64,000 bases of DNA from Cladorhizidae sp. MBARI D1340-BT2 (lineage: Eukaryota > Porifera > Demospongiae > Poecilosclerida > Cladorhizidae), in NCBI GenBank assembly GCA_028752905.1, contig JAQNBH010000009.1, positions 25,280,370 through 25,344,369 of the forward strand, written 5' to 3'. Position numbers and translations under genes: made by a program. Below are positions 22,004 through 54,575 of the stretch, in pieces. The stretch's first letter is position 1, and each line of letters opens with the position of its first letter. A model generated the notes under the pieces. The model was given only the letters and a program-made list of their open reading frames with translations. It did not search any database and was not told where the DNA came from.

Positions 22004-22077
22004 TTAATGTGAAAAGGCTTTAGGAATACACAGCTTAACTTTACTATACATTTATGTCTCTCATCTCTGTCTGTCCT

Positions 22078-22735: not shown

Positions 22736-22990
22736 TTACTTTATATTAGGTGAGTTACAGTATTCTATGGCTAGGATGTGACAAGATTTTACTAATTGCT
22801 AAACTTCAATTTATTTGAACATGTCCCTCTGGCTCTATGTGTCCAATCTACTTCATGAAACTATCATAGGAGGTGAGTTAGAATATTCTGTCTAGGATGA
22901 CAAGTTTTGACTGCTCTAATAAATCTGAACATGTCTGCCAGCTCTCTGTGTCCAACTTACTGATGTTATTTCAACATAGTTTGATAGTGC
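22735..22990. repeat. ~115-bp tandem repeat, two to three units
   Basis: Units start with GGTGAGTTACAGTATTCTAT and end near CTTCATGAAACCATCATAGG. Same family at 14930-15120, 24600-24930 and 55125-55430. Each unit boundary resembles a joined acceptor and donor (TAGGAGGTGAGT), so the repeats could affect splicing, but the frames are not open. Confidence 0.75.
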
Positions 22991-24377
22991 TAGAGTATTG
23001 CAAGAACTAAAGTCTATTCACCTTGAATTGCAGTGGAAGTAATATGCCCAATCATGTACTGAGCAGCAAGATAAAAGTCACTAGAAGCATGTGTGTAAAA
23101 GGGCATGAAATATCCACTGATTGAGCTAACTAATGTGTAATAAAATATCTAAACATTAAATATATTTTATTTGCCATCATGCACTAAGCCGCACCAAAGG
23201 TGGAGAAATGGTTAAAGTCAGATAAACACCTGTCTGTTGCTTTACAGCAGCTGTCAGAAGTTGTATCTGATTATGTATAGGCCTAGCTTGTGCTAAAAAG
23301 CTCAGTTGGTCTTTAAGCTGCTTACACCAGTTTTTTCTGACCTTTACCCCCTGCACCCTTGTTGCTATTGCCTGTGGTTAGGGAAGTGAAGTAACAGGTG
23401 ATTAGTTGCAGCTGGAGCAAAGTGCATGCATGTGTATATGGACACAATTCTTGATTTAGTAGTTTACTGGTTGCTATGGCTCTCCTCTCCATTATCAATT
23501 CTACCCAACCTCATCTAGCATCCCTGTTTATCATGCTACATCTGTGTATCCAGTTGCTTAGTGCCTCTACCTTATCATCCTGCATATCTCTGTTAAGGAC
23601 TTCTTACTAAGTTGGTTTGAGAGACATCTCCCTGGCCCAGCTGGTTCTGAGTGGTGATCTTGCTTGTAGAGTAAATGTTAAACTAACAGTTGACCCCTCC
23701 ATATCTGATGATGCTTACATTTTGTAAGAATAATTCCATCTCAGCTTAAGTGTTGTGATATAATAATTTTTTTTTATGTATGTAATCGTCTCATTTAACA
23801 TGGTCTTTGTTGGAGGATGGAAAATTATGCTCTCAATTTTGAATGTAATAACAAATTTCGTTTCGTTTACATATCTTCAAATTGGAACATTAGTCAAAAT
23901 GTTTTGTAAGACATGTGCTAAAAACCAGATTTTTACCTGTAAATATGCAGAAGGCTACAGCATTATTATATTAAAACTTTATTTCTTGTTCTGGTTTATG
24001 TGAGTGGGCGGAAGAAGTGATAAAAATATAAAACTTACTGACAATCACAAATTGTCATCATAAACAGTCTCTTCCTTACCTTTACTGCTGTCTCTGCAAG
24101 CCAATAACAGCTGTATAGGTACCATGCTAGCCTGAAATCCCTCAGAATTCACTCTTGAGAATAAAATGAACTCCGATTTACAGTATTACTGTATCAGCAT
24201 CTAGGATTGTTTGGTATTGTAGGTGCTAGCTAATATCAGGAGGGAAAGAGTTACCTGTAGATTTCTCCTGGCATGGTTGGGCATTACTAGGAGTATTAGT
24301 AGGAGCTAGCTGTCCTGACACCAGTAAGGGTAGCATTACTTTTACTAGAGTATACAGGATCCAATCCAAAGATAACA
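22991..24377. other. Diverged duplicate of 15.1-15.5 and 18.3-18.7 kb
   Basis: Matches parts of 15.15-15.55 kb, then 17.05-17.2 kb, then 18.35-18.7 kb, without the 15578-17042 insertion. 23930-24300 also matches 55430-55720. The short frame at 23776-24003 shows no family features. Confidence 0.45.
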
Positions 24378-24494
24378 ATGTCAACTAACAGGTGGAGCAT
24401 ACTTAATCTCAATGGAAGCAAGTCTGTGTTCTACTCCGTAACTAGTGATCATTTATCAACAGACTTACTGCAGACTTACTTGAACAAGAATTGA
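24378..24494 (+). CDS. Short exon of a locally duplicated family (member 2)
   Basis: 38 codons from ATG to TGA, paralogous to 18732-18905 (shared core SVTSDHLSTDLL). An indel after the core brings an early stop, so the copy is probably non-functional. Confidence 0.3.
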   Translation: MSTNRWSILNLNGSKSVFYSVTSDHLSTDLLQTYLNKN

Positions 24495-24599
24495 TGGTAA
24501 AATATTTACTAATAACCACGAGATCAGAATGCTCACTTGCATACCATTGAGCTCAAGTGCACTGTCTCTGCGACATCCATCCATGTGTCTGTCCTTACT

Positions 24600-24930
24600 T
24601 TATAGGAGGTGAGTTAAAGTGCTCTATGGCTAGGATGGCATGATTTGATCAACTTCAATTTATTTGAACATGTCTCTTGGCTCTCTGTTTCGAACCTACT
24701 TCACGAAAACATCATAGATGGTGAGTTACAGTATATCTAAATCTAGGATTACATGCCTTGATCAACTTTAATGACCTTTGGCTCTCTGTGTCCAACCTAC
24801 TTACATGAAACCTTCATAGGCGATGAATCAGTGTATTCTATATCTAGGAAAACATGTGTTGACTGATTGATCAATTATAATTTATTTGAACATGTGTCTT
24901 TGCTCTCCCTGTCCAACCTAATGAAACATA
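24600..24930. repeat. ~115-bp tandem repeat, three units
   Basis: Three diverged copies of the GGTGAGTTACAG...CATCATAG unit, directly upstream of the PHD exon. Confidence 0.75.
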
Positions 24931-25046
24931 GTTTCATAGTTACAAACATTGCTACAATATTGCAAGAACTAAAGTCTATTCACCTTGGCTTGCTGTGTAA
25001 GTTCGATGATCAATCATGCGCTGACCAGCAAGAAAATTTTCACTAG

Positions 25047-25184
25047 AAGAACATGGATGGAAATAAAATGGTCTCATGTGACAGCTGCTTGGAATTGTTC
25101 CATGACACTTGTCAAACCGTCCCTCAAGATGTGTGGAGTGATCCAGACTATAAATGGTGCTGTAGTCAATGTAGTCATAATTAA
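25047..25184 (+). CDS. Terminal exon encoding the second half of a PHD finger
   Basis: PHD fingers are C4HC3 zinc modules that usually read histone tails. The exon follows an acceptor (TTTTCACTAG) and is open for 45 codons to TAA at 25182. It supplies the later zinc ligands: CDSC, then LFHDTC, then the WCCSQC ending, with SDPDYKW before the last pair, the usual W-x-C-x2-C arrangement. The first Cys pair must lie on an upstream exon that I cannot place. Paralogous segments at 15.23 and 23.08 kb match up to the CACTAG acceptor and then diverge, so this exon is unique to the 25-kb copy. Confidence 0.6.
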   Translation, partial: KNMDGNKMVSCDSCLELFHDTCQTVPQDVWSDPDYKWCCSQCSHN

Positions 25185-25399
25185 CACTGTAACTGTTCTA
25201 TAAACATCTATTATATCAATGTATGGGACTGGGGTACTAAATATACTGGCTTTGCATAGTTATAATCTATCTATTTATAAATATAACTGATTCAGATTGT
25301 ATTTGTCATGATATAAATTGATCGATGCCAATGATTTCATAAGCCTCCAATGACAAGCAGGATGTATTGCTTGAGGCCATGACATTAATGTTGGACATC

Positions 25400-25835
25400 A
25401 ATGTCAGAAGCTATGGTTATGCTGTGCCTTCCACCCTATAAAACACACTGTATTCAGACCCTTACTGTTAGTTTTTTAAGTCTCTCAAAGCTCATTGATT
25501 AGCCTGTCATTGCCATAAATTATGGTAAAAAATCCTGGTCGGGTCATGACAAATTTCACTTTTCTTCTCTCTTTAGAGAAGTCTGGTTTAAGGCTTGAGA
25601 GATTCTAACCTTATCTTATAAAGGGCATTCTTTTATTGGAACGGATTCAGAGAAGATCTACCAAGTACATTTTGTCAGACTAGATTATAGTCCAGATTGA
25701 AGGCCCTCCATCCTCTTCCCTTGATCACAGAACCTCTAACATCAATGTGGACAACATTTGACATTTAGCAATTAGTTGAACTTGAGCTAGCTGATGCTTT
25801 CTGACTGTCCACTTGGGTACACTAATGCTAATGCT
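25400..25835 (+). pseudogene. LINE reverse-transcriptase C-terminal relic
   Basis: The stretch LERIQRRSTKYILSD at about 25640-25685 matches the region after the RT domain of Jockey/CR1-type LINEs (usually L-E-x-I-Q-R-R-A/S-T-K). Readable coding follows on both sides in shifted frames. Several stops are present; 5' part absent. Confidence 0.5.
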
Positions 25836-26888
25836 ACTCATTGGAATCACAAAGATAGCCAAACTAACTATTAAAAAAAAAAAGTGAGAGAGAAGGGAGA
25901 GAAAAAAACCCCCGGGATTACAAATTTCCTAGGATATTAGGAATAGGGGTGCCAAATTTCCTGGCGGGATTCCATATTTCCTAGGATATCTGGAATGGGG
26001 GTGCAAATTTCCTGGGATGCCAGATTTCCTGTGACACCCGCTCAGGCTAGGGTGGGGCTAGCTATTTCTTTCCTTCAGAATGCATTCCTGAGCATGCGAT
26101 CATAATTGCTCTCCAATTCCCAATGTGCTCGAGTGACAATACTTCAGAAGGTCCGGCTCGGGTGACTACTTCAGAAGATCGGATTTTCCTCGACCCAGGT
26201 GACTATTCTTCAATGGATCCTTACTTTTTTTTCTTGTTTTTATCTTTTTCTGCTTTTAATCGTGGACTGTGACTAGGAAAAGAAAATGGGGAAAATGTCC
26301 GCCTTCAAAGGCTCATAACTTCTAAACCGTACCCCCTATGACAGTGCTTTTATTATCTTAGAGCTTTAAAATATTGGAGTTAGGTAGGGTTAGATAATAC
26401 ATACAGGTCGTAGTACTAAGTAGGCTCAAGTAGACATGTTTTTGGGGGGTAGGGCTACTCTTGGCAGACTTCATTACAAAACATCAAATTAACTACTAAA
26501 GTGGTTCTTGTTGTTCAATAAGCTTCAATGGGTGCAGTAAAACTTTGTAATTGGCCAACTAAGTGGCATTACATTTTTATGACAGTTTTTAGAGTAGTGG
26601 TCAGAATTTTTCATGAGGTACACTCATTCATTGTATTATAATTTGACCATTATTATATATTTTATTTTTCAAACTTAGAGTTTTATTGCACGGAAGAAAG
26701 GGCCAAAATACTGAAAGTTTGAGACAAAAATAAAAATTACAGAGGTAGGCACGCCAAGAAAAATAGAACAACAAATAAAAAAGAGAAAAAAATTGCAGGA
26801 CTCTCAAGTTGAGGTTTGTTTTAGAACTTTATTACTAGTTGTCCAGACAAATTCTTGACTGTTCTTTCTTTTTGTCTCTTTAGGTCCT
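25836..26888. other. Unassigned stretch with two short repeats
   Basis: 25915-26035 has three to four copies of a ~37-base motif around CAAATTTCCTAGGATAT. 26110-26210 has three variants of CGGGTGACTACTTCAGAAGA. The remainder to 26888 shows no gene. Confidence 0.5.
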
Positions 26889-27562
26889 TTACATTACAGG
26901 GTCGATGTCCCGTAATCTGTGCAGGTTAGTAGGGGCAGACAAATAACTTGACAGAGCCTCCTTTTCAGAACACTTGCTCAGTATGTTATGGTCCTGAAAG
27001 CTCAGTGGCAAAATAGACTGAACTCTTGAAGGTTGCTTCCCATGCCACAAACCGTTGCAGACATGACGCTCCTGGTATTCATAGACCTATATTCACATAT
27101 GCCAGACAAATTGTCACAAATGTCACAAGGCAACTAAATTCTCACATACATCTCTAGGTTCATCAGGTTTGTCTTGACAACCAGAGCACTCCCACAACGA
27201 CACTGTCACGTCCTCACAGCCTCCACGAGACTCCGGTCCTTGATCAAGCGGAACTCTCCAGTGAAGTCAGCTCTCTCAGAACCAGACCCATAGAACTGCT
27301 CAGTATGCGCTGAAGTTGATGAGGACGTCCCAGAAGTTAATAGCATAAAAAGCGCTAGCCTACATTTTTCATTATTTGTCGACACAAGAATTGATGTCTC
27401 GCGAGCCGAGAGCCCTTCTTCAGAAGCGACCGCTTTGTCTGACTTGCTTGCTGTGGCATTCTGCAACTCTTTCTGGGATCCCCAACAGGTGCGTTTCTTA
27501 TGCCTAGCTTGCCTGAACTTCTTCTAAGTGCCAGCTGAGCATGAACTTAGTTCGCGAGACAT
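26889..27562 (-). pseudogene. Decayed minus-strand gene of unknown family
   Basis: From ATG 27562 the frame reads a basic N terminus, a TAG at codon 13, then a long protein-like stretch (KSDKAVASEEGLSARETS, LALFMLLTSGTSSSTSAH, ADFTGEFRLIKDRSLVEAV). Just after that, restoring one base would continue into SLWECSGCQDKPDEPRDVCE, with three Cys. A further frame ends in SAPTNLHRLRDIDPVM and TAA at 26889. The constant composition across three frames argues for one decayed coding sequence, perhaps the 5' exon of a mobile-element gene. I cannot name the family. Confidence 0.45.
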
Positions 27563-28109
27563 TCGAATTTTTGTAGAATTGGCCGCCCAAATAAAAAGCA
27601 GCTGGCGCGCCTGCGTATATATACCTATTTTTTTATTTTAGGTTATCAAAAATCAATGTTTTATTACATAGTTTCATATAATGTACAAGCTACTAAAAGT
27701 TCCAACACACAAACGAAACAACAGTAACAAAAAGACAGCAGTAAAAAAAAAAAAAGCAAGACAAAAACCGCAAAAACCATAAACAACAACAATAAAAGTC
27801 CGAAATCAAGCGACACCATCCACTGCTGGAGAACGGATGGCCAACCTTCTTAGCCAAAGCCCGGCATTACCATGCCAGAGGTTGATGGAGAGGCATTGAA
27901 AGAGATGGCAGATGGAATACCCAGAGACTGCATGCATACTGTGGTTTTGTTTGTTTTGCTGCTGTAAAAAAATATATAGCCCGGAGGTATGTGCAATGAT
28001 GTGGAAAACATAGCCAGAAGAATGCGAAGGTTTGTTTGAAGTCGGGGTGGGGGGGATGGGGAGTGGGGGGTCAGGGGGGGGGCGGTCGCGTAGCTATGCA
28101 GGTGTCGTG
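27563..28109. other. Stretch with A-rich and G-rich runs
   Basis: A-rich region near 27745-27800 and long G runs at 28045-28085. A minus-strand frame ending at 27850 follows an acceptor-like TTTTTTACAG near 27963 and could be a last exon, but shows no recognisable domain. Confidence 0.35.
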
Positions 28110-28265
28110 CCATATTAGTCCCGCTGCCATATTTGTCCCACTCAGAAAATGTTCGCGATAACGGGACAAATATAGTGCCATATAGTGCCATAATTATTAG
28201 TCCCGCCTGCCATATTAGTCCCGCCTGTGCCATATTGCTCACCTGAGCTGCCATATTAGTCATAC
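28110..28265. repeat. ~19-bp minisatellite GCCATATTAGTCCCGCCTG, left block
   Basis: Variants of the unit repeat six to eight times with small gaps. The same unit, as CATATTAGTCTCACCTGA, recurs at 30236-30366, on the other side of the gag/hAT insertion. Confidence 0.8.
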
Positions 28266-28667
28266 AGGTGGGTGTTTTGGGGGTTTAACCCCCCCCCACC
28301 CATTTAAATTTATACAACTGCAACTTGACTCACCTTAGTAGTGATACCAAACCCCCCTTACTGATACCCTAGATCTGCCCCTGTGAAATGCCTCATTGTC
28401 CCACCATATTAGTAGGCCCTGGCGGATTATGCTCGAATTTCTACATATTTTTCTTTCCTTTTATGCTCCTAATATTCACCAATTTTTCTTTTCTTTCTAC
28501 CTATTTTTCTTTCCTTTTATGAAATTATGCTCCTAATATTCACCTATTTTTCTTTTCAATATACCTCTTTTTCTCAATGCTTAGACAAACAATTGTTACA
28601 TCATTTAAAAAGAGAATATAGGCAATCAAGGATTCAAGATTCGAGACATTTTAACAGTTACAATTAT

Positions 28668-29726
28668 CTATAGACTATAGTTGTACTGTAACATAACAGA
28701 AAGTTGTAAGTAATCCTTCAAAGAAGTTTCTTGCTTCGTAGAAAAGGTATTGCTCAAAATTGAGAATGCACGTTCAGCTGCAGCTGACGAAGGCTGCACA
28801 AATAAGACTAATCTACATGTGTGAGTCCAGTTAGGCAATCTACCATTCTCCTCATGGCACTTCCACCACTCAATGGGGTCTACGCTATCTAAAACATCCT
28901 CAGCTGCTGCAAGATATTCAGGTAACTCAGACTTTAAGCCATTAATCACTTCTGTATTCAAGAATAGGAAGACAGTAAGTGAATCAATATCAGCTGCAGT
29001 GCTGGGTTTCTTGTCAGACACAAACTGTGCTACATGTCTAGGCATAAGCTTCATTGCAGTATCAACTGCACACAAATCATTTACCTGCTGGATTGTTTTG
29101 CAGCCTTCTGTCCATCGTATGGTGAGGACAGCACGACCCAACAGAGCCTCCCATCCTTCGTCTGGTTTCCGTTTGAGATTGTCCAATCTTTGTCGGTAAG
29201 CTTTTCTGGTCACACGGTAGAGTCGCAAGAGTGCTAGTTTGACTTGATCATAGTCTTCCTTTACATCCGGCTGCATTGCCAGATATACTCTGTTGGCATC
29301 CGGTCGGAATTCCGGAGCCAAATATCTCATCCAATCCTTCTTGAGGACCTTGTATGCAGCCATATGGCTCTCTAAAACGTTAAATATTCCAGGGGGTCTT
29401 CGTCTTCCTTCATTTCTCTGAACCGGGGTGCTTTGATTTGGCTGGGGGTAGGAACAGAGTCCGATTCTTCTATCCTGCCAGTGCCCCCTCCGCTTATCAC
29501 TGTCATCAGCAATCTTTCCCATCTTTGATCTCTTTTCTCCTCGGCTTCCGCTCGTTCGGTCACCCGTCTTTTCTCGTCTTCCTTTTGCTTCTCTGACTAG
29601 AGTTTAAACATTCGGAGCATATCAGACATTGTCACTCTTTCCCCAATATCTTCTGAGTCCATTAGCGGTGAAGTACTCCACCTTTCTCCTTCTGTAGTGT
29701 CCTTTGCCTTACTTCTGGTATCCATT
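28668..29726 (-). pseudogene. gag (SCAN-like capsid) joined in frame to a hAT dimerisation domain
   Basis: From ATG 29726 the N-terminal gag region is readable with a TAG at codon 41 and a frameshift near 29372. A 284-codon frame (29522-28668) then holds the capsid core (LAPEFRPDANRVYLAM, EGWEALLGRAVL, KLMPRHVAQFVSDKKPST). At about residue 180 (near 28982) it passes without a stop into the C-terminal part of a hAT transposase: DPIEWWKCHEENGRLPNW and FVQPSSAAAERAFSILSN, the hATC dimerisation motif including the conserved Glu. The frame ends in a normal hAT C terminus. No integrase lies between. The join looks like a hAT fragment inserted in, or recombined with, a retrotransposon gag. Whether it is expressed is unknown. 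Confidence 0.75.
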
Positions 29727-29764
29727 CATGTCAAGGGTAGTAGCTATCTCTCTAGTTAAAAAAA

Positions 29765-29783
29765 AATCCCACCACTGCAACCA
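29765..29783 (-). promoter_or_regulatory. Primer binding site, tRNA-Leu type
   Basis: On the minus strand TGGTTGCAGTGGTGGGATT, complementary to the remembered 3' end of tRNA-Leu(AAG) with about two mismatches, lies just after an LTR-like end (CCTGTCACA) and 39 bases before the gag ATG. Confidence 0.6.
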
Positions 29784-29785
29784 GT

Positions 29786-30160
29786 TGTGACAGGACCAAA
29801 TCTGATATTACCCACAGACTCTGAGCCAGTCACTAAGTGTTGGTATGCTGCCACCACTCTACCTTTAAGCTATACACTAGGCTAGCAAGGTTAAGTAGAG
29901 CAACCTTAATAATTCAATATAGGACACTTACAAGACTCAGCTAACTCCCTGAGCAGTAACAACTCCTCCCTTAACTAGGCTGGAGCCCCCACTTCTGGTT
30001 TCTGCCCATACATGGTAATCTTACACTCATCATCGACCTATGACATTTGCCCAACATAAACACATAACACACAAACACACTAAGCTGCAGACCATATTAT
30101 CAACACTTCCAATTCATAATTAGTTACTCACTACTGGGTTCACTCCACATCCATAGTTAT
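29786..30160 (-). mobile_element. Probable 5' LTR remnant of the gag/hAT locus
   Basis: Placed by its position directly upstream of the primer binding site. The outer edge is not defined because no second LTR is present in the window. Confidence 0.4.
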
Positions 30161-30235
30161 GCATTGGGAACAGTCTTGTTTTTATGTCGTCCTGCGTTAG
30201 CCAGGTAAACTATTCCATATTCATATTCCGTATTA

Positions 30236-30366
30236 GTCTCACCTGACATATTAGTATCACCTGACATATTAGTCTCACCTGCCATATTAGTCACCTGCAG
30301 ACACCTGCCATATTTGTCTCACCTGACATATTAGTCCCACCTGCCATATAAATCTCACCTGTCATA
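30236..30366. repeat. ~19-bp minisatellite, right block
   Basis: Seven variants of CATATTAGTCTCACCTGA, the same repeat as at 28110-28265. Confidence 0.85.
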
Positions 30367-30627
30367 GCTGAATATGAATGTGTTGCGTGTGTATATATAT
30401 ATACACAAGCTATATATAAATTGCAGTAAAAACATGGGAGGAGTATCTAATATGGCAAGTAACTTGCCAACCCTCATTTCTCTCACAAATTTGTTTTTGT
30501 TTTTTTATATTAAATTTTACTCTCTAGCTATAGAAATAAATTGTTTTAGCAACAAATCTATCATCATGGGAGAAGTAATATGACAAGTGAGAATACTTGC
30601 CATTTACTATAATCACAATTAGATGAA

Positions 30628-30718
30628 CAATTTTTCTTTTGTTTTGCTTCTCTGGATGATGGAGTGATAGGAACAATTTTTCTTTTGTTTTGCTTCTCTG
30701 GATGATGGAGTGATAGAA
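30628..30718. repeat. Perfect 45-bp tandem duplication
   Basis: Two adjacent identical copies of a sequence beginning GAACAATTTTTCTTTTGTTT and ending GGAGTGATAG. Recent by its identity. Confidence 0.9.
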
Positions 30719-30970
30719 GGACAGGGTCAGAGCATATATATGTGGTTCCTCAGCACCATCCTACAATTTAACTTGTGCAAAACTTGAATTAAACAATAAA
30801 CATATTTCCAGGTCAACCATGATATCCTAGGAAGACCACCAGAAAGTTTAGGATCTCCCAGTATTTCACAGATTGGAGAAAACTAAGACAGTTTATTGCA
30901 TGAAAATGAGACATTCATAATTACCCAGAAAAAAATCCCAACAAGAACAAACAGATTCAGTCTTAATTAT

Positions 30971-33900
30971 TTAAGTGGCACCCAATTCCCTGTCCCAACA
31001 ACTGCCACATTTCCACTCCTCCTCCCGGTTGATGATGGCTGATGGTGGAATCTCTGTACATGATTGTTGGAACCATTTACTAAACTTGCTGCACTGTGCC
31101 ACTGTGAGGGCACAGTCATGGGGTTGTCTGCAAACACAGATCAATGGTTCCCTGAGAACAATTTTGAGCTTCTTGCTTGTGGCTTCTCGTCGGCATCCTT
31201 GAACAGGGAATAGTTTGATGTGATATGTCTGGAATGATCTCATCAGGTGGGACCGCATCTTTGTTTGATCAAATGTTATTGTTGATAGGTCCACACCATT
31301 GCATAATGCGGTTGCTACAGCAATGGCGAATAAACCACAGGCATCTCCAACCTGTTGATGCATGTATGGTTGCTGTATGGTCAGGTGGCTTCCTTGATAT
31401 AATTCCATCCATGCCAGGCATTTTAGTGTATCCAGTTCTGCAATGATCCAACAACAGTAAGAACAAACAAACGAAACAACTATTAATTGTTTGTCGTGTA
31501 TAACTACTATTTATTTCACAAGAATTGATTGAATGGTAACACGTACTGTACCTATTTGAGTGGGTTCATTGTTGTACCATACGTGGGCATCTTGCCATTA
31601 ATATTCAGCTGTGAATCATATTTAGGTGAAATTGACACTCTTGAAAGGCCCTGGTTCTTAATGTGATGCTTGAGTTGAGATACTATGCAAGTAAAAAATT
31701 GAGTATAGATTTCTAAGCTCACAACAGTAGTTATCAAGGAGCCCAATTTTTTAATCGAGAGGATTAAAATATAACAACACTGTTGGATCCAATGACATTA
31801 TTCAATTTCCAATGCATGTCATAAAAGTTGTTGGAAATTGACAACAGTTAATTCTTGATCCACCTAATCAGAATGTGTAATTTTTTTTTTAAGTTTAGCA
31901 TGTAAAATATTATCATTCAAGTTATTTCTTACTAGTTCCTGCATAGAGGCTGTCATACACCCGCACAGTCCCCTTGGGCATTCCTATGCTGGACACACAG
32001 ACCCAGTGGCCGCCAGTATTCATGATTTGGATATAATCCCAAACCGGAGTTCCAGTTATTGAGCCTCCACTTCCTGGTGCCACATACCCAATGGACTGGA
32101 AGCCACCCATCTTTGGAAACTGATTGCGAAGTAGATCCTGCGCCTCATCTATGTGTGTGTCCTCTAGCCATGCTTCAGACAGCAGAATTATTAAAAAGTC
32201 ACCAGGAAATTTTCTGTAATGGACAGGTGGTTTGCAAGGCAAGGGTTTTCCAAGCATTCTAGGCACAACTTGTGTAACACTGGTTACAACACAGTCTGAT
32301 GTTGGCTCACTAGAGAGAGGTGTGTTTCTATCAGGTGGTGGAAGGACTAGACTATCTTTCTTAGTCTGTCGAATGATTAGGCACTGCCTCTTATCTGGAC
32401 TCCCAGGGGAGGAAGCTGTATCACTCAACTCATCAGATGGTCCAGGGTTGTTCGAACTGGTGTTGTGTGACTGGATGGAAGTTGGTATCTCATGTTGAAC
32501 TGGTATCTCTCTAGTTAAGTAAGGCTTCAAGAGCCAGACATTAAACTTAACCTTCATAATGTTTTGGTTGTTATCCTGCAGTGTGCAGAGTCCTTTGGGT
32601 GAGACATGAACGATTACATAGGGTTCCAACCAGTCCTGCACCAGCCTGTCTCCTTTTCTGGATACCTTCCTTGCATTCCTCTTTTAAGGACATAATCATC
32701 TATGATGGTCAACAGGTTAATAATATAAAATAAAAAACATCCAGTAAAGGTCGAGCTATAGATAAAAAATATATCACAAAAAAACAGACAAGGACATTCT
32801 AACATTTATCAAAACTCGGAAATACATATATCCAGAAAATTTTATTATTCTTAGCCTTTCGATTTTTTCTCAGAAACAACAATGGGACTCTAATTTGATT
32901 CAGCTTATATAAAGGCACACATTAAAGGTACACATTAATTCATAAAAACATACCTATTGCCGTTTTTAGCCTCTTTTTTGCTTGGAATCGAAATAAGCTT
33001 TATGCTTTGCTTTAGCTTCTTCAATTTTCAACCGTATCTTCTCATATGTACCTATGTGATTACAAAATAAAACAGATCTGTAACATGATTTTTGGGGAGT
33101 GCATCAAACATTTTCATTAAACTATTTGTCCACCATTTTTTGTTTTGTTACAAAAAAGTGTCAGCAATTTCATGTCATATATTTATGTTTGCCAGTCAGT
33201 TTTGTTCTTACATCTGCCACATGCTTCTCCAAATTATATTGTATGTCTTCAGGAGACATAGTGAGTGAGATGTTTTCATAGAGAAGCTCCTGCTCATTCT
33301 CATGTTCTGCATTATTGATGGCTATGGAACCCCTAGCTGTTCGGTAGAACATCAACACAAATGTCTGTTGCTTTGTTGAAGACTGGACACTTGTATTGAT
33401 ACCATAAGTTGTGGGGAGTACATATCTACATAAGTACAAAACATCATACATAGAAATCATAACTACAAGCAGCACATTCAAGGTATATGCATCCTTTAGC
33501 TGAAGGCTTACACCAAAAACCATGTTTATATTTTTATTGTATAAGAATTTGGAAAATAATATACCGTATTGCTACAATGTGCAATTTAGAGATTTTGAGC
33601 TCCATAAATGTATAATGCGCTCTTAGTTTTGCGTTTTATAATAAGTACCACTAATTATAACAAGATCGGTTGGCACTTTTCTGCGCACTATCCTGACCAT
33701 CCAGTACCCTCTGCACATTTTCGTTTGCTCTCCTGATACATCTGATCGATTCCTGCATCTTCACTAGTAGGCAAGGATTGTTTGAAGCACATTCGAATGG
33801 TCACACTGTAGTCAGCTTCTTTCTCGCTAGTAAACCGTCTGGCTTTTGGCTGCAATATGCACGCGGAATGTTTTGTGCGATAAAAAAGATTGCGAGATGT

Positions 33901-34841
33901 TTTACGAATAACAATGCACTCGCAAAACTTAATCAAATTTTGTAGCAATACGGTAGCAATAACTACTATTTTTTATGCCTTTTCATAATTTTATATGTGT
34001 GTGTGTGTGAGTGGGTTGGTGTTTCAGTGTGAGAGGATTCATTGGAGAGATTCTGGTGAGATTTTCTGGGGTAATCACAGATTAGCATGAAATGTGATAT
34101 TGCCATCTACTGGAAGGTGGTGGTAATGGTAATAGTAGAAATCTCTCTATTAACAAACTGTCAATCTTGAAAAATAATTATTAAATATTGGTAGCTTACT
34201 TGTTCCAGTCAGATTGAGTATCGTTTGTATACTTGGACAGTGCCCTCTTAAGAGTTTGATTAGTCCGCTCATCTTGGCCATTGCTCTGAGGGTGATATAC
34301 CGAACATACCATCTGCTTCACTCCAAAAGCAGTCAAGACAACATCATTGAGCTGAGTTATCAAATAAGTTCACACAAACAGAACATTACTCTACATGAAT
34401 ATTTATCAAAAGGAAGCAGGAGGAAATTTCCAGATAATCAAGACTGAAGTTGCTAATAAAGTTATCTTAAATTGTGTTAAGTCTGCCTTGTACTCAATAG
34501 TCTAACTTTGCTCTTGTAAACAAATCCAACACATTTTCCTTGATTAATTTTCACTTCTCAGACCACATACATGTCATTTCATGAACACAGATGGCAACAG
34601 TTTTATTAAGTTAGTTACCTGGTTTATAAATTCATGCCCCTGATCCATTATAATTTTTTTGGGAGGACCATAACTGTAGATGAGCTCGAGTAGAATGCTT
34701 GCAACATCACCAGCTGACTTGGACTTGATTGGCCGAGCAAATACCCACTTGGTAAAGAGATCTGTAACAGTGCAGACATATATATGGCCTTCGTCTGTGG
34801 CCGCAAATTGACCAATGAGGTCTATACCCAAAATCTCCCAT
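30971..34841 (-). CDS. Integrase - GPY/F - Ulp1-like protease - PHD-like finger gene (mobile element)
   Basis: Seven minus-strand exons with GT-AG introns: 34841-34619, 34351-34200, 33425-33212, 33051-32954, ~32680-31933, 31682-31552, 31437-30971. Exon 1 begins inside an integrase core (WEILGIDLIGQF, first Asp; IMDQGHEFINQ, second Asp) and exon 2 supplies the catalytic Glu (HPQSNGQDERTNQTLK). Exon 3 ends the core (TYGINTSVQSS). Exon 5 starts with a GPY/F-like module (GDRLVQDWLEPYVIV, FNVWLLKPYL), then a Ser/Pro linker, then Ulp1-like protease: His in TGGHWVCVSSIG, Asp in VRVYDSLYAG; exon 7 gives Gln and Cys in MHQQVGDACGLFA. The C terminus has a degenerate PHD pattern (CVCRQPHD, SKWFQQSC, WKCGSC). 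No zinc-binding N-terminal exon is seen. Two exons (4 and 6) end in TAG immediately before the donor, and exon 4 also has a TAA, so the copy is probably not fully functional. Closest to GIN/Ginger-type integrase elements. Confidence 0.75.
33564..33953. mobile_element. 390-bp MITE with perfect 14-bp TIRs, TA target
   Basis: Both ends read CCGTATTGCTACAA inward and are flanked by TA (33562-33563, 33954-33955), the Tc1/mariner target. It lies in the intron between exons 2 and 3 of the integrase-Ulp1 gene. A minus-strand frame inside (33688-33948) could be a leftover of the parent element's coding sequence but shows no diagnostic motif. Confidence 0.85.
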
Positions 34842-36289
34842 CTGTAAGTATTTGCTACATAATTTTAAGAAAATTAGATGTGCCTGTAATTACCTGATTT
34901 TAAGCATTTTAATTATTATATAGTGCATAAGATTTGGATTGGTAAAGGATTATCTAACCTGTTTATTAAAATTAACCCAAAAATTATTCTATTTAATCGG
35001 TGTATATATGTAGCATCAAAATTCCCCTAAGTACTAACTTGTCCAATATCAGACCTATTCATGCAGCCTAAAAGTTTAGGCTTCTCTTGCCAGCAATTTA
35101 ATATGCGTTAGCACTCTCATGTAGGCACTCTCATGTAGGTTTGGCAGGTCAGAGATCATTCAGCAACAAACTAAAACTTGCCATATACTCGATTCTATAC
35201 CTATACAGACCCTAAAAAAAGTATGTCGCAAAAAGCGTTCCAACAATATAGCACACAGAAGCACAGTTCTCCAAACTAAAAAAAAGGTCGGAAAAATGAC
35301 ACGTAAAATCATCATCATCATCATCATTATTATAATCATCATCATCATCATATTATTGGCTGCATAGATTTCATTTATTTTTATGCCATTTTGTAGAGCG
35401 CTATCTGGGAAGGTGCCTTTTGGTGTCGCTTTAGAGAGCTAATAAAAAAAAGTTGATTTTTGCATATATAGTTCGTCTAAGATGCCATCTTTGAACGGCG
35501 TGCGCAACCCAAATTGCTCGATCCTTTACCAAATCGGTGTGTTAGATGCAGTGGATTGAGGGTATGGCTTTTGCAGTGAAGAATCAAAGAAGGATTGCTG
35601 AATGTAGTTACTGATGGGGGAAGCATTTTAGGATTGTTCCTTATGGCATTCTAAACCACTGGACCAATCTGTCCCAAACTTGTCATGCATGCATACAAAC
35701 TTGACCTGGGAAGTAACCTGGGCTAGGTCTGACCAGGACACTCCTCTTCGTGTGGGCATTGCAGGCATATATAGCATCAAAACAGTATTCCAATTCACGA
35801 AAGCTTTAAAATATATTGGGAACAAGTAATATGTAAAAAAAATTTAATAAATTAAAGGACATATAAGGTTGGCTTTGATATTGTGCTGTCGTAACAATCA
35901 CTCCATAACTGTCTCCACACCACCATAAACTTCAGCAATAATATATTCTTGGATAACAATCCCTACATTACTGCGGACAGCAAAATTGTGATAAATAACT
36001 GATGCTATATAGCAGCACATTTTCTTAGCTATAAATCTCTTCATACCTTATGTTAGAGTAATCTGGATTTTATCATATTTGTGACGTCCCTTGTGGTTGT
36101 GGAGGTAGTAATATAGTACAAGAATATATTATTATTGCTGAAGTTTATAATTATTTGTGAGGTCATTGTGGTTGTGTGGAGGCAGTAATGGAATGATTGT
36201 TATGACAGTCTAGCAATCTTATATTTCCCCAGTTGGGACTAACATATTTCCAATGGGCATCTTTTCTATCATTTGCACATCATTGCTCA
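34842..36289. other. Interval between the two integrase genes
   Basis: No N-terminal integrase exon recognised. 35308-35351 is an ATC/ATT microsatellite that creates a poly-Met minus-strand frame. The rest shows no gene. Confidence 0.45.
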
Positions 36290-38884
36290 GTACTGACCCT
36301 GGATTAGAAATATTAAAAGGTCTAAAACTGTTTTACTTTGCTTATTTCTGATATCACTCTCTGTGCAATGAGGTTCACTACAGTGAGGGACAGATGGTGA
36401 GGAGTGTTCAGCAGAGCTTGGATCATCTGAACAAGGTAGAGGAGTAGAACTTTTGTCTGCTGATACATGTTCCATAGGCTCAGTTTCATTGATCAAGTCT
36501 GCGATATCTTCCCTGTCCGTACCCCAATTCGTATGGACTACACTTCATCGTTTCATGAACACATGTATTCAGTTGATCTAGTAGTATACACACACACACA
36601 AAGCAGAGATGACCAAGTATGTGAAGTTCATGCTGCCATCAGGATGCCAGTATTAGGCATATTAGTACTACAATGGCTGTACTAAACACTCGTCCATAAC
36701 CTATCAATAACCATTACCATGAAAAGTTCAGCTATATTACATATTTATGGTATCTTCTTTTATAGTATCATACAGTCACCAATTATAGTTGTTTATGATC
36801 ACTATTGTTTATGAATCACTATTATGAAAATCAAACTTACACTGAATTTCTGGTAACCAATGTGACCATGCCATATCACATTCATTCTTTTCAAACCGAC
36901 ATGCAAGAAGTTCTTCAACTTTAGCATTTGCACGTTCCACTAGACCCTGTGATTGAGGGTGTCTTGGTCGACCGTTTATGATGGTGGCTTTCCCCGGCCA
37001 GGTCTTCACCAGTTTGTCTATGATATGATTGACAAATTCTCTTCCGTTATCAGATTGGAATATCTATACATAGGAACACTCAAGCATGCTGTAACCATTA
37101 ATAATCAATTATGGGTCACACAACCTTGGGAACACCGAAATATGCAAAAACATGACTGGACAAGTTTTTAGCCACCTCAATTGCACTCTTGTGCTCAAGA
37201 GCAAACAGTACATGGAATTTGGACCAATGATCCATGTAGTGGCCAATCCAGTTATGGCGGTCGTCTGGTCTATGTCGCATGTCAATCAAATCCATCTAAC
37301 TAAGACGATGCTAAATACCAACATATTTGGTACTAATAATATTACCTATCCTCGAGTCATAAATCCAGAAGAAATGATAGGTTTAAGTGTGGGGCACTGT
37401 TGGTTTGTGGCTTCTGAAGGTTAATCACACTACATAATTGAACGTACTTCTCCACAACAGATCTTGGTAGACACGCATAGTTCGAAGAAATCTAGAGGGA
37501 GTATGGTGAAGACAGAGAATTGAATTACCTTTGATATCCAAAACAGATCACTATTATAAAATGTCGCTGGTTGTTTACCACATACTAAAACAACAGGATT
37601 AACCCATGGGTAATTAAATATTCACATTAAAAAGCTGAGAGGTGGATGCTTGCTGTATCTAGTGGATGAATCAGACACACCCATGTTTTTGCTAGTATTA
37701 GAAGGATGTAGGTCAAACCGATATAAAATAGGAAATAGGTGAAACATAAGGATTCATAACATCCAAACGTCAACATACTTCATATCGAGTGTTTTATGTT
37801 GTGTCCAAAATGTAACTTGCTGTGTGTTCCAATTTTTCAATAAAAGTGAATTGGAGGTTACTACTTTTACTCATATGCTGCGCTGCACTGTCCTTGGACT
37901 CAATTGAATTTGGATATGACAAATTGTATGTTTGCACTTACCAAAACCATATAAAAGTTAGAGATAGCAACCTTATGTCAGGACCTCAATTCAAATATTC
38001 ATGGTCACCTGATTAAAAACATTTTATGGTTGACATGAGCTATACCCATATTATGCACAGCTTATATAACTGACAGTCAGTCACAATTTTCAATCTCACG
38101 TGCAATCTTTAGGTGTTCAACCAGTAGAGCTACACTGTACCTACAATATTTGAGTGCCAAAATGAGAGCATGCATCAAGGGCTACATTTCAAACACAAGA
38201 TCACATGCATAGAATCTGTTTTTATATAGAAATGATAGACATTCTGTACCTCGGCTAGAGCCTTTTATAGCCCATATGACCTTGAACATCACAGTGCACT
38301 CTATTCAAAATAGTATGAAACTCTTCAATGTAAGCCACTCTCCGATAATGACCAAGGATGGAGGAGTCATTCTCATCCTGAAAAAAAGATTAGATTAAAA
38401 TGACACCGTATAACTGCGATTCAGTAAAGCGTCTGGCTCATGAAGCGAATGGCTACTGGATTTCAATCAATTAAACAAAGTTTTGTCTTTGTTATTATCA
38501 TCCATGCCTATAGATTGGCACTTGACTTGTGGCTTTAAACTTATAAAATAAGGAGACCTGTCTAACAACAAAATATGTCTCACTAAATATATCACTGGCT
38601 ATATGGGTTTAATCACCTTTTTCTTTGCTGGTGTATATACAAAGTACATCCTTAAGCCCAAGAGCAGGGTACTCCAAAAGTTAAAAACATTTTTGTTTCA
38701 CCCAAAAATTGAATTTAGGATCACTGTTCGCCATCTCCCCTTTCAGAAATTTGACAACAGCTTGTCCCTTTGTTCTTGATATGGTTTTGCTTCCAAGGTT
38801 CCTTCCAGAAAGAAAGGTTTGCTGAACATTAATCATCATAGGCATTCTCTCCTTCCATTTCTCCTTCCTACAACCTCTTCCCAT
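36290..38884 (-). pseudogene. KRBA2-like integrase gene, decayed
   Basis: Six exons: 38884 to ~38612, 38377-38250, 37491-37346, 37295-37125, 37065-36841, and ~36540-36290. Exon 1 includes DPKFNFWVKQKCF, then an in-frame TAA before LLEYPALGLKDVLC. Exon 2 holds the His/Cys region (HTILNRVHCDVQGHMGYKR), with a frame break at its end. Exon 3 continues the zinc region (YVQLCSVINLQKPQ); it has a two-base insertion and ends in TAG before the donor. Exon 4 begins the core (MDLIDMRHRPDDRHNWIG, first Asp), exon 5 has the second Asp (FQSDNGREF) and Glu (SQGLVERANAKVEELL). Exon 6 is a Ser-rich linker (NWGTDREDIADLINE). Resembles the integrase family related to vertebrate KRBA2, known to me as abundant in sponges. 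Decay is mostly C-to-T type. Confidence 0.75.
38408..38475 (+). ncRNA. tRNA-like fragment, probable SINE head
   Basis: The sequence around TCAGTAAAGCGTCTGGCTCA then TGAAGCGAATGG resembles the D-arm and anticodon arm (CAT loop) of a tRNA-derived SINE. GGATTTCAATC is a poor match to the Pol III B box. No acceptor stem pairs well, so it is not a functional tRNA. It lies in intron 1 of the KRBA2-like gene. Confidence 0.3.
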
Positions 38885-38970
38885 GTGGGAGCAAACTTGT
38901 TTTGATCTAATTGGTGATCAGGTATTGGCTTTCGCGATCCTAGGATTGAGCAAATTCCAGGTTTGCGGGT

Positions 38971-40036
38971 AACATATATATTGTAATTGGCGAGATGCAA
39001 CAATTGCCTTCAAGCAGTATATAGAAAGGCAGTGCCACAAGTGTTCTGTGGAGTAGTACTGACACAATGGTCCGGGCATTGTGGTAATAAATATTATTAA
39101 CCCTGTGCATTTATACTTTGAGACATCAGCAAAACGTTGTCTCAATGTTTACAAAAATGCCTATGATCATATTTTTTTATAAAATATAATACTCTCTTGC
39201 TTTATGGTTAGTATAGGTAGATCTTCATTATCTTTCATGCAATTAAAGATAGTTTTTGTAGCATTGGTTACACATATCACAAGAATCAATATTTGCATAA
39301 TACTTACAGGTCCCCAGCATCCTTCTCTGTATACTGAAGTCATTATTCTCAATAGCTCATCCAAACACTGATGACGGATGTAGTGTTCTATTTTTTACAA
39401 GCTAGCATGCTGAATTATAATTTTTTTACTGCATATATCTTGGAATCATCTTCCCTCATAAACTTCAGCAACTTATAAGAATTCCTATCACTATGGTCGT
39501 TGTTGCTGCTGATTCCAAATCCCTGTCTTGGAAAGAATTCGAGGAATGTTGGTTTAGTAGCCATTGCTAAGAACTGCTAAGCATCTCACTTAAATTGCGT
39601 GTTGTTGTGCAGGTAGCTAATACTACACAGAATGCTTGTGATACTGCATCTGTTTATGCTGCTTGTAGGAAACTATTGCATATTTCCATATACATAACTA
39701 CAAGTAATAATTACCTACCTGACTGTATGCTTGCATAAAGATATAAATATTATCCAGTTAGCAATTCCATTCTTATTTACAGAGCATTAGAGATTCAAGC
39801 CTTCATGGACTATCCTTGTCACAACTGTCTAGCAAAGATAACAGGGCACTCGACCTTCAAAATTAAGCCACTGCTACGAAAGGAACTAAGTCGTCTGGAA
39901 TGATCCTAACACTGTCTTTTTCAAAAAGGTTGCTTGGGCAAAAAAATTAACTTGGTTGTGAGGCTCATTATGGAAAGGCAAGGATCCAGATCTAGTAGAA
40001 GCACTAGAAACATGTTAAGCAATATTGCCAGCCATA
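38971..40036. other. Copy 2 sequence matching 3437-4545
   Basis: Diverged duplicate of copy 1 with no confirmed exon. The related frame in copy 1 (4035-4229) is not maintained here, which argues against coding. Confidence 0.5.
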
Positions 40037-40650
40037 TTAACCCTTTCACCGTCGACTTCATTTTGAGATTTTGATCTATTTTTACTTTAATTTTTGTATC
40101 TGATCATTGGTTCAGAAAAGTCCCCAGCAACCGCATATCACATGATTGACAAAGAGTTACTGATCAACTTGGTGATAAATGTGTTGCCTAGCAACCAAAC
40201 CACAAACCATTTTTGGATTAGAATACTTTTTATCACTGCATTTATCGACTATTACAAGTATATTTTATGGTTTTTCAGATCAAATACTAAAATATGGTCG
40301 CTTATCGAACTGCAAACAGCATATAATCTGAAAAATGTACATTTTTTGGCATAATTTATGAATATTGAATGCCCTAATTTTTCTATTTTGCAGGATATAG
40401 CCATGTTTGTCAGTCTATAAGAGTATTGACTGTTGTCAAGCACCACGAGGAAGGTCTGGCTGTATTGAAAGTTGAAAATTTCAAGATGTTGCAGAAAGGC
40501 ACAATAAAGCAAAGACTCATCAAGAAAACATACGTGTACTACACATGTCTGCATGCATAAATGATAAAGAAAAGAAGTATACATGTACATGCCTAACACA
40601 TGTACATACTACAAAAGCAATACAAACAAAATCTCGAAGAGAAAAGGAAG

Positions 40651-40765
40651 CTAGTGCGAGTAGTCAGAGAGTGTGTGGAATTCCCTGAAGCATGTCCTTC
40701 CACGCACAGCACAAAGGCTAATACCACAAAGAGAGCAGTGACAAAAGGTCTTGTGCCTCTTACCT
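40651..40765 (-). pseudogene. C-terminal Cys-rich domain remnant of piggyBac transposase
   Basis: Follows in frame from a Lys/Glu/Ala repeat (40775-40870) and reads RGKRHKTFCHCSLCGIS, then CFREFHTLSDYSH and TAG at 40651. The CxxC pairs with CF-x-x-[FY]HT match the zinc-binding C terminus seen in the intact piggyBac at 19858. No catalytic domain joins it to the N-terminal exon at 45025. Confidence 0.5.
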
Positions 40766-40774
40766 CTGGCCTCG

Positions 40775-40980
40775 ACTTCTTCCTTGGCCTTTTCCTCTTC
40801 CTTGGCCTTTTCCTCTTCCTTGGCTTTTTCCTCTTCCTTGGCCTTTTCCTCTTCCTTGGCCTTCCTTGGCCTTTACCTCTTCCTTGGCTTTTTCCTCTTC
40901 CTTGGCCTTTTCCTCTTCCTTGGCCTTTTCCGCTTCCTTGGCTTTTTCCTCTTCCTTGGCCTTTTCCTCGGCCTCGGCAT
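40775..40980. repeat. 18-bp minisatellite CTTCCTTGGCCTTTTCCT
   Basis: About eleven units. On the minus strand one frame reads KAKEEE and another GQGRGK; a 12-base partial unit in the middle shifts from one to the other. On the plus strand it makes a Phe/Leu-rich frame (40600-41268) that I regard as spurious. Confidence 0.9.
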
Positions 40981-41785
40981 CCAACACGCCCCCTGTCTCA
41001 GCGATCAGAAGGTAACAGTGATACTTCTGAGTCAGAAGATGGAACTACATCAAATGAAGGAGAAGATGGTAGGAGAAGCAATTGGGGGCGAGTTTGCAGG
41101 ACCACTCCAGGGTTGTATACAGAAATTTTGCAAAGGGGGGGCGAACTTGAGATATGGAAAAATAAGGGGGGGGCGGAGAGCCTGGATGGTGCGGAAAGGG
41201 GACGTGCACCCTGGGCTTCCGCGTGGAGTACGAAAGTGTTTTACACACAGGTATTTTTGCAGTACTAACTGTATATATAGCTGCTACTTATGATGGCATG
41301 CACCTTTTCTAAAACTTTAGTACAACATTCCATCTTAAATATTTGCTGAAGTTGCATGCTACGGCAATCAGCATATATAGATTAGATATAGTCACTTGTC
41401 ACTCGTATAATGGAGGTGGGCTTTTGTGAAATCGAATTATGTTGCATTCCATGCATTTTCTTACAAAATCATGGACAACAGGTTTCATACACAATTTTTC
41501 TCTAGTTCTCTAGGGGGGGGGGGGGGGGTGGAAATGGTTGGTCACTTGGTGCCCTAATTTTTGTTAATATTTTCTTAACATGTTCATAAGTCGTAAAAGG
41601 GGGGTCTGGGGGGAAGAGCCCCCCATATTTTTGGGGGCTTTTACAATGTCTGAGGATAGCTATTTTGACTGACTACCAATGGCATTATGCTATACCGAAC
41701 TATGGCTAGACTGTATATATTTCTCATGATATTGTAGCTGCTTGGAAAAAGGAAAGCATGTGTCATGACACGATGACATCACACA

Positions 41786-42157
41786 CCACCACGTGCTCTC
41801 CTTTGTAGGTTTGTCACTTCTTTTGTTTCTCCTTCTTTCCCACTCCCTCTCTCTCAGTATTTTTAACTCAGTCCATTATGTCATGGTCTTCAAGTCTAAT
41901 CTTAGACATGATGTCATCACACGCCACCACGTGTTCTCCTTTGTAGGTTTGTCACTTCTTCAGTTCCCTCCTTCTTTCCCACTCTCTCTCAGTATTTTTA
42001 ACTCAGTCCATTATGTCATGGTCTTAAAGTCATCACACACCACCACGTGTTCTCCTTTGTAGGTTTGTCACTTCTTCAGTTCCCTCCTTCTTTCCCACTC
42101 TCTCTCAGTATTTTTAACTCAGTCCATTATGTCATGGTCTTAAAGTCTCTATAAAAG
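41786..42157 (+). promoter_or_regulatory. Triplicated leader repeat with CACGTG sites and TATA box
   Basis: Three tandem copies of a ~116-138-bp unit, each with an E-box CACGTG (41790, 41928, 42044), then TCTCCTTTGTAGG and a CTTCTTTCCC tract. A TATAAAAG at 42150-42157 lies 34 bases before the transposase ATG. The layout looks like a compact promoter with repeated upstream elements. Confidence 0.65.
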
Positions 42158-42190
42158 AAACCTTACTAGCTGATTTCTCTTCATATTAAT

Positions 42191-44377
42191 ATGGATATTC
42201 GCTCATACTTTGCAAGTACTTCTCAAGCCTCTTCTCATGCTAATAGCAGCGATAGCGAAGATAGCAGAACAGATAGCTCTGAGCATGTCGAGGCATCTAG
42301 TCCTAGCCTTAGTCCTCCACCTTCAAAGAAAAGCAAGCAAAACAAACACCGCTCTTCTGTATCCACGAAGAGAAAATACTCTAAGAGCTGGGAGAAAGAT
42401 TTCAGTTGGCTCTATTATGACGAGGATAGCGATGGTGCCTTTTGCAAGGTTTGCAAGCAATCTGGTCTGCAGCGTACTGGAGGAGTGTGGGTCACACAAC
42501 CTTGCAGAAATTGGAAGAAAGCTGTTGAAAAAATGAAAGCTCATGCGAGAAGTGACTTCCATATCCATGCAACTCAAGCTCTTTTTGCAGCTAAAGGAGC
42601 AGCCAAAGGTGGAACAGTTGTACAGCAACTCCAGAATGTTTTAGCTCGCAAAAGAGCTCAGAACAGAGCTGCAGTGAAGTGCCTGATCCTACTCACTCAT
42701 TTTCTTACGAAAGAACAAGTTGCACATTCGACAAAATTTGAGAAGCTGGTTGACGTGGTGGTTCGATGTGGCAGCCAACATTTGAAGCAATTCTTAGAAA
42801 CTGCACCAAGAAATGCTGTGTACACATCAAGAGTGGCTGTGGTTGAATTCATCGAATCATTGGGGACATGGGTGGAGGAGTCGATTCTGAAGCGACTTCA
42901 AAAGGCACCTATGTACAGCCTCATGGCAGATGAGTGCACAGATGTCACCAACGTAGAAGAATTGTCTGTGTTTTGCCGCTGGGAGGAAGATGGTGTACCA
43001 GTAGAGTGCTTTCTGGAGCTTATTCCATTGAAGAAGGCTGATGCAGAGACCATCTATTCTAATCTCATCGATTGTTTAAAGAAGAAAGGTCTACAAGTCG
43101 GAAGAATAGTTGGATTGGGATTTGATGGAGCTGCAACTTTTTCTGGACGAAAGACCGGGGTTCAGGCACGTATCAAGAAACATACTCCTCACGCTCTGTT
43201 TATACACTGCCACTGTCACTTACTGCAGTTGGCTTGTGTGCAAGCTGCCAATAAAACTCCTGGAATTGCTCATGTTTACAGAACATTGACTACTCTTTGG
43301 AAGCATTTTCGCAATTCCCCCAAGCGAGCAGAGTGTCTGAAGGAGGTACAGCACGTTCTTGAACTTCCAGAAATGAAAGTGATCAAGCCATCTGACACAC
43401 GCTGGCTGGCACATGAAAGGTGTGTCAAAGCTGTCAAAGCAAGTTATTCTGCAATTGTAATCACCATTGGGAACATCTACGAGACGTCCCACGAGCCAGA
43501 AGCTCTTGGAATCCATGGTGCCCTCTGCAAATTGTCTACGATTGCAGCTATATATTTGCTTGATTTCACTCTACCACAAGTAGCCAAGCTCAGCAAAGCA
43601 CTTCAGGCAGAGCAGCTTGACCTCTCGTTGATATCATTCCTTGTTGATGCTACTGTTAAATCCTTGGATGATGCAGTTTTGCCTGGAGCGAACTGGGTGT
43701 TGGAGCTTCTTGAAAACGTTGAAGACTTGAAGTCATCTACAAAGGTGTCTATTGACGCTGATAAAATACTTTCGTTCCAGAATGTTGTTGGTAAGCCTTT
43801 TGTTGCTGATTTAAAGGCCAACATAACAAGCCGATTTTCTTCATCCAACGCTGTTGTATCAGTATTGTCTATATTCGATCCACGGAAAGTTCCAAAACCA
43901 GATTCAGTATCTTTTCCCACTTATGGAGACACGTCTGTTGAGAAACTGATTGCTCACTACGGAGAAGATAGAGATGCAGAAACATTGGATGGAGAAGAAA
44001 CAGTGAAGACAGCCATGATTTCCACTGAAATACTTACAGAGTGGAAAACATTCCGCCAGCTGTTAGTCAAGCAACCACGGGATACTACTGCATCACAGCT
44101 GAAAGAACTTGTTTCAAACGACATGCTCAAGGCCATGTTTCCCAATTTGCACAAGATTGCCTCCATCTGCTTATCGATTCCAGTTTCTACTGCTTCTGTG
44201 GAGAGAAGCTTCTCACAGATGAAGATGATCAAGACTCGTTTGCGTAATTCTCTAAGTGACTGCAGCCTTTCTCACCTTATGAGGATTGCTATAGAGGCAC
44301 CAGAAGTACTCTCTAAGAGCGACCTTGAAGAGATTGTGGACGTATGGCAGAGAAAACCAAGAAGAACCTCAGTTTGA
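42191..44377 (+). CDS. hAT transposase, apparently intact (728 aa)
   Basis: Cut-and-paste transposase of the hAT superfamily, similar to ZNF862/KIAA1586-type proteins. One uninterrupted frame. Residues 1-65 are Ser-rich with a basic patch; 70-128 form a BED/TTF-like zinc region (FCKVC at 84-88, HIH at 124-126). RNase-H-like core: D247 (MADECTDVTNVEEL), D312 (GLGFDGAATFSG), the HCHCHLLQLAC segment at 339-349, SDTRWLAHER at 401, and E671 in the C-terminal dimerisation motif (PVSTASVERSFSQMK). The ATG at 42191 follows a TATA box, and the next codons (MDIRSYF) match the typical short hAT N terminus. Full-length frame, all three acidic residues and matching ends make it a candidate active element. 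Confidence 0.92.
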   Translation: MDIRSYFASTSQASSHANSSDSEDSRTDSSEHVEASSPSLSPPPSKKSKQNKHRSSVSTKRKYSKSWEKDFSWLYYDEDSDGAFCKVCKQSGLQRTGGVWVTQPCRNWKKAVEKMKAHARSDFHIHATQALFAAKGAAKGGTVVQQLQNVLARKRAQNRAAVKCLILLTHFLTKEQVAHSTKFEKLVDVVVRCGSQHLKQFLETAPRNAVYTSRVAVVEFIESLGTWVEESILKRLQKAPMYSLMADECTDVTNVEELSVFCRWEEDGVPVECFLELIPLKKADAETIYSNLIDCLKKKGLQVGRIVGLGFDGAATFSGRKTGVQARIKKHTPHALFIHCHCHLLQLACVQAANKTPGIAHVYRTLTTLWKHFRNSPKRAECLKEVQHVLELPEMKVIKPSDTRWLAHERCVKAVKASYSAIVITIGNIYETSHEPEALGIHGALCKLSTIAAIYLLDFTLPQVAKLSKALQAEQLDLSLISFLVDATVKSLDDAVLPGANWVLELLENVEDLKSSTKVSIDADKILSFQNVVGKPFVADLKANITSRFSSSNAVVSVLSIFDPRKVPKPDSVSFPTYGDTSVEKLIAHYGEDRDAETLDGEETVKTAMISTEILTEWKTFRQLLVKQPRDTTASQLKELVSNDMLKAMFPNLHKIASICLSIPVSTASVERSFSQMKMIKTRLRNSLSDCSLSHLMRIAIEAPEVLSKSDLEEIVDVWQRKPRRTSV

Positions 44378-54085: not shown

Positions 54086-54122
54086 TAATTACATTTATAT
54101 AAATTTTTTAATAATTTTTATA

Positions 54123-54575
<453 letters not shown>

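Follow-up and report, generated by a model that had tools for sequence, protein, structure and literature searches.

The locus described here lies on the minus strand at 30971 to 34841 of a 64,000-nucleotide stretch (hereafter the window) from Cladorhizidae sp. MBARI D1340-BT2 (assembly GCA_028752905.1, contig JAQNBH010000009.1, positions 25,280,370 to 25,344,369), and is most probably a decayed, 5'-truncated copy of a Ginger1/GIN-type cut-and-paste transposase, whose integrase core is followed first by a GPY/F-like module, then by a Ulp1-type protease and last by a PHD-like tail. The window copy probably makes no working transposase, and it may still yield a shortened or unusually spliced product.

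A preliminary description of the window, made from the letters alone, had read an open gene of seven exons at this locus. Its outer coordinates are exact, with a splice acceptor before 34841 and a TAA stop ending at 30971. However, six exon-like stretches were placed on the minus strand instead of seven (E1 to E6, Table 1), and one of these, E4, carries a stop codon in every one of its three frames. E1, E2 and E3 join into one open frame of 196 residues and E5 and E6 into another of 405 residues, the homologous frame of E5 being open from 32683 only. Behind an acceptor before 31681, in the E5/E6 intron, one frame is open for 42 codons, and this may be a further exon, perhaps the seventh of the preliminary description; it was dropped because the direct E5-E6 join is in frame and gives a length like that of relatives in alignment A1. 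The cleanly spliced introns E1/E2, E2/E3 and E5/E6 measure 267, 774 and 495 nt, all multiples of three, and the exons beside them therefore share one absolute frame, perhaps by chance. A unit resembling a miniature inverted-repeat transposable element (MITE) sits inside the E2/E3 intron.

Table 1. Features placed at the locus, with positions in the window and in the order in which the minus strand is read; the MITE-like unit is given last.
Feature	Position	Strand	Content	Basis
E1	34619..34841	-	first part of the integrase core, with two D residues (34822 and 34645)	splice contexts, triad
E2	34200..34351	-	integrase core, second part, with E (34270)	
E3	33212..33425	-	end of integrase core and linker	GT-AG contexts
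E4	32954..33051	-	linker exon, frame broken	
E5	31933..32683	-	GPY/F-like module; linker; Ulp1, first half (His at 32008, Asp at 31954)	
E6	30971..31437	-	Ulp1, second half (Cys at 31339); PHD-like tail at 31138-31000; stop	
MITE-like unit	33562..33955		16-nt perfect inverted repeats, 362 nt between	inverted-repeat search

The integrase core of E1 to E3 matches Pfam rve in the window protein (E 1.3e-14), as does the E1 open reading frame at 34577-34864 taken singly (E 1.5e-12), and it matches retroviral and Ty3 integrases of known structure (21 distinct PDB sequences, E up to 0.001). The acidic residues form a DD35E triad, in which 35 residues separate the second D from the E (codons in Table 1), which bears out the core with three acidic residues that had been read here before. 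E1 aligns with the GIN1-like protein P0026 of carp at 50% identity over 74 residues, E2 with the same protein at 72% over 47 residues, and E3 with the GIN1-like protein P0031 of lobster at 40.7% over 59 columns (E 6e-7). At the start of E5, a segment aligns with residues 347-411 of P0026 (44.6% over 65 residues, E 5e-11), and it is as a GPY/F-like segment that the GPY/F module of the preliminary description survives; the glycine of GPY is replaced by E in the window (WLEPY) and a Pfam SH3_Tf2-1 search of the window protein gave no match.

Taken by itself, E5 is matched most closely by P0001, a database protein of 177 residues (54% over 142 residues). The Ulp1 residues His, Asp, Gln and Cys follow one another in order, and the catalytic residues are present in all 16 rows of alignment A1, the window included, although the Gln-to-Cys loop of the window is at least one residue shorter than in the other 15. 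The Pfam model Peptidase_C48 scores 18.2 bits on the window protein (E 0.0023), under its cut-off of 20.7, so that the cysteine protease proposed earlier stands on its residue set and falls short on its Pfam score. Some relatives score above the Pfam cut-offs for Peptidase_C48 or PHD, and the Ulp1 fold is supported for one relative, P0004. The window carries a Ulp1/SENP (C48)-type domain, then, with its residues read in the window and its fold taken from P0004.

A PHD-like pattern had likewise been seen at the C terminus, and the tail does match solved PHD fingers (best PDB match E 0.002), but the Pfam PHD model reaches only 10.1 bits against a cut-off of 24 (E 0.87), and the window keeps six of the eight Cys4-His-Cys3 ligands, C4 being replaced by F and H5 by Q. 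Each of these two ligands is kept in 13/13 aligned relatives, which were picked for a visible PHD tail (P0021, with a partial tail, was not counted); exceptions at other positions are P0009 at C1 and P0024 at C8, and P0008 ends before C8. Directly ahead of the first Cys, 12 of the 13 relatives have an aromatic residue and the window has I, whereas the Trp two places before the zinc His is present both in the window and in 11 relatives. The PHD finger of P0004 has its nearest sequence matches in PHF2 and PHF8, and fold matches to PHD entries bound to histone H3 trimethylated at lysine 4 (H3K4me3) were found as well. PHF2, PHF8 and DIDO, which the fingers of the relatives resemble, are known readers of H3K4me3, and in PHF2-type readers the aromatic residue and the Trp serve as cage residues. 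A separate PHD-like fragment at 25047-25181 on the plus strand resembles the PHD finger of P0002 (E 4e-4), and no credible Ulp1 match was found beside it.

On sequence grounds the integrase-Ulp1-PHD fusion is real, because the same arrangement of parts recurs in database proteins. Protein searches returned 44 proteins, 21 of which were scanned with Pfam, and a search with the joined window protein scored the 7995 candidates that shared most words with it. P0002 has SH3_Tf2-1, Peptidase_C48 and PHD above cut-off, with an integrase tail found by alignment (E 1.3e-4), and P0033 has the same parts with weaker Pfam scores; both share with the window the order integrase tail, GPY/F, Ulp1, PHD, but differ in that all eight PHD ligand positions are filled and that their predicted chains begin inside the integrase core. 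P0029 and P0030 (Em0001g3172a and Em0006g230a), which from the prefix we take to be Ephydatia proteins, share with the window an integrase core plus Ulp1 in one chain and score above cut-off for both rve and Peptidase_C48, and the best alignment of P0029, among the candidates scored, spans 89% of the joined window protein at 27% identity. They differ from the window in that Pfam finds no PHD in either and that P0030 has an H2C2 zinc finger. The two are 97.8% identical to each other over 372 residues, as would be expected of a recently mobile family. P0034 (Paramuricea) joins rve to a Ulp1-like tail matched by no Pfam model. Three further relatives, P0014, P0016 and P0019, combine a HIRAN domain with a Ulp1 domain of this kind (HIRAN passes its cut-off in P0016 and P0019, C48 in P0014 only).

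It could be argued that an integrase relic merely adjoins an independent Ulp1-PHD gene, as several database relatives, for example P0003 and P0004, are predicted as Ulp1-PHD alone, and as E3 and E5 join without a clean GT-AG frame through E4. However, one uninterrupted frame of 253 codons spans the first half of Ulp1 as well as the GPY/F module, the single chains of P0002, P0029, P0030, P0033 and P0034 each combine an integrase-derived part with a Ulp1 or Ulp1-like one, and the stand-alone Ulp1-PHD models may be pieces of longer gene models. Two adjoining genes are accordingly very improbable. We give as little credence to the locus being part of a Gypsy long terminal repeat (LTR) retrotransposon, a Polinton/Maverick element or a virus. 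The core does resemble retroviral and Ty3 integrases, and Ulp1-like folds occur in viruses (the African swine fever virus (ASFV) and monkeypox virus (MPXV) rows); against this, protease and integrase are fused, tblastn confirmed none of the 35 pattern matches obtained on viral contigs with the Ulp1-PHD alignment A2, and, in a tree of 16 integrase cores that held no Polinton row, the five Gypsy pol rows are set apart from the window (100/99).

That tree was the second of two, from which the long-branch or fragment rows P0043, win_int2 and P0040 had been left out; group labels were assigned after the first. The window falls in the GIN-like group (84/96), beside the lobster GIN1-like protein (97/96), and in the first tree (19 rows) it was paired with the same protein (93/95), but in no starred set. 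The closest integrase cores are those of the GIN1-like proteins P0026 (49.7% over 173 columns) and P0031 (44.0% over 184 columns), which differ from the window in having an H2C2 finger and, as scanned with Pfam, no Ulp1 or PHD. By its rve match, its DD35E triad and its place in the GIN-like group, the core can be assigned to the Ginger1/GIN lineage, in trees neither of which held a named Ginger1 consensus.

Ginger1 elements are defined by Bao et al. (2010; PMC2836005) by YPYY, H2C2, DDE and GPY/F parts and a C-terminal domain of OTU or Ulp1 type (lacking in one listed family), and by ends with terminal inverted repeats (TIRs) of 40 to 270 bp, TGTNR, and CCGG or CCGT/ACGG target duplications. 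The same authors list Ginger1-9_HM of Hydra, with Ulp1 and PHD, 2 introns, 120-bp TIRs and more than 22 copies. By that description it is like the window copy in being an integrase-type transposase with C-terminal Ulp1 and PHD, and unlike it in having TIRs and many copies, whereas searches in the window turned up neither N terminus nor TIR for the locus, and its tail lacks two PHD ligands. The GIN/Ginger-type class named in the preliminary description is thus backed by the integrase tree and by relatives of the same architecture, but the domain order marked there for study is not unusual, as it recurs in Ginger1-9_HM and in P0002 and P0033; it has been known since 2010, and the locus is a further, probably dead, example.

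No zinc-bearing N terminus was found, an absence that had been remarked before: five H2C2-bearing N termini found no credible match in the 64-kb window (best E 0.34; YPYY was given no separate search), and the weak zinc-finger match at 41476-41405 behind that value was taken as chance. The absence looks like truncation. A comparison of 22000-31000 with 34841-43000 for TIR arms gave a best 40-bp pair with 25/40 matches, which is not credible, an inverted-repeat search gave no fitting TIR among the 25 of 47 pairs listed, and BLASTN found no second copy of 30960-34860 within the window at E up to 1e-5. Since these searches recovered neither the N terminus nor the repeats, the locus is not filed as a Ginger1 element.

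Across the donor and acceptor ranges tested, GT-AG splicing leaves 12 open paths, four of which reach the E5 frame, all four by omitting E4. If GC donors are allowed, 135 paths are open and 56 reach the E5 frame, and within the same ranges no path of either kind that does so retains the whole E4 test peptide. Several observations weigh against a decayed transposase. Some of the 12 GC-donor paths listed retain most of the E4 peptide, and sequencing or assembly errors could mimic frame breaks; the relic reading is weighted lower, and domestication higher, on account of these paths. The frames of E5 and E6 remain open and the full set of four protease residues is kept, which could reflect residual selection. 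No target-site duplication with TGT was found in the window, nor were Ginger1-type TIRs or CCGG/CCGT duplications. Finally, the four Ulp1-fusion rows of the 16-core tree form one side of a weak branch (69/81) with the window not among them, and P0026, P0031 and P0035, the three scanned of the other five GIN-like rows, lack a Ulp1 Pfam match.

Much of this could fit a domesticated host gene of the GIN1/GIN2/Imagin sort, that is, a Ginger1 copy without TIRs kept by the host, perhaps as a protease or chromatin protein. The want of TIRs among the searches made, the open E5 and E6, the splice paths that omit E4 or keep most of it, and the GIN1-like nearest integrase rows all favour such a gene, and domestication of Ginger1 is in print (PMC2836005, PMC12863088), the latter describing Imagin as a domesticated Ginger1 gene that has lost the DDE triad and the repeats. 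However, the window has no zinc-finger N terminus that could be found, E4 is broken for GT-AG splicing, two PHD ligands are lost and the DDE triad is intact, unlike that of Imagin, although this last point is not decisive; the MITE-like repeats in the intron are weak evidence either way. Domestication is therefore considered unlikely, and a decayed Ginger1/GIN-type copy is preferred.

The window around the locus is rich in transposons. Transposase frames lie at 20028-21695 (minus), 28668-29603 (minus) and 42170-44377 (plus), one of them matching DDE_Tnp_1_7 (piggyBac type, E 5e-88) and the other two carrying hAT dimerisation domains. Upstream of the locus is a second, different integrase-like relic (36290-37295, minus) with segments at 37295-37119, which matched no integrase family, and 37063-36812, which matched rve_3 (E 0.0081); it formed a long branch in the 19-row tree and was not near the E1-E3 integrase. 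A MITE-like unit at 35886-36208 has 43-nt inverted repeats, 86% complementary, with 237 nt between, and at 54121-54571 the triplet TAT is repeated about 150 times in a nearly perfect array.

In an intact relative, cutting and joining of the element ends at excision and insertion would fall to the DDE integrase, and the GPY/F module would aid integrase multimerisation; Ulp1 would free proteins at the excision or insertion site of SUMO or a related modifier, and the PHD finger would bind histone H3 tails and tether the complex. The preliminary description had suggested that the element may alter or evade host SUMO regulation of chromatin. PMC2836005 states that GPY/F serves multimerisation and proposes that Ulp1 and OTU domains take part in transposition, perhaps by activating repair. 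It is possible, if doubtful, that in the wider family the PHD finger is an H3K4me3 reader beside a deSUMOylase, such that the transposase would pick active chromatin and strip SUMO there; this is suggested because the aromatic residue and the Trp are kept in most relatives, as in PHF2-type fingers. Under the same proposal the window copy would be a relic or a re-purposed protease, because its aromatic residue and two zinc ligands are lost. Why transposases carry SUMO or ubiquitin proteases was asked already in 2010 (PMC2836005), and the locus adds a further integrase-Ulp1-PHD transposase to that question, in which PHD ligands have gone while protease residues stay. Intact relatives such as P0002 offer better material than the window copy for asking whether reader and deSUMOylase act together.
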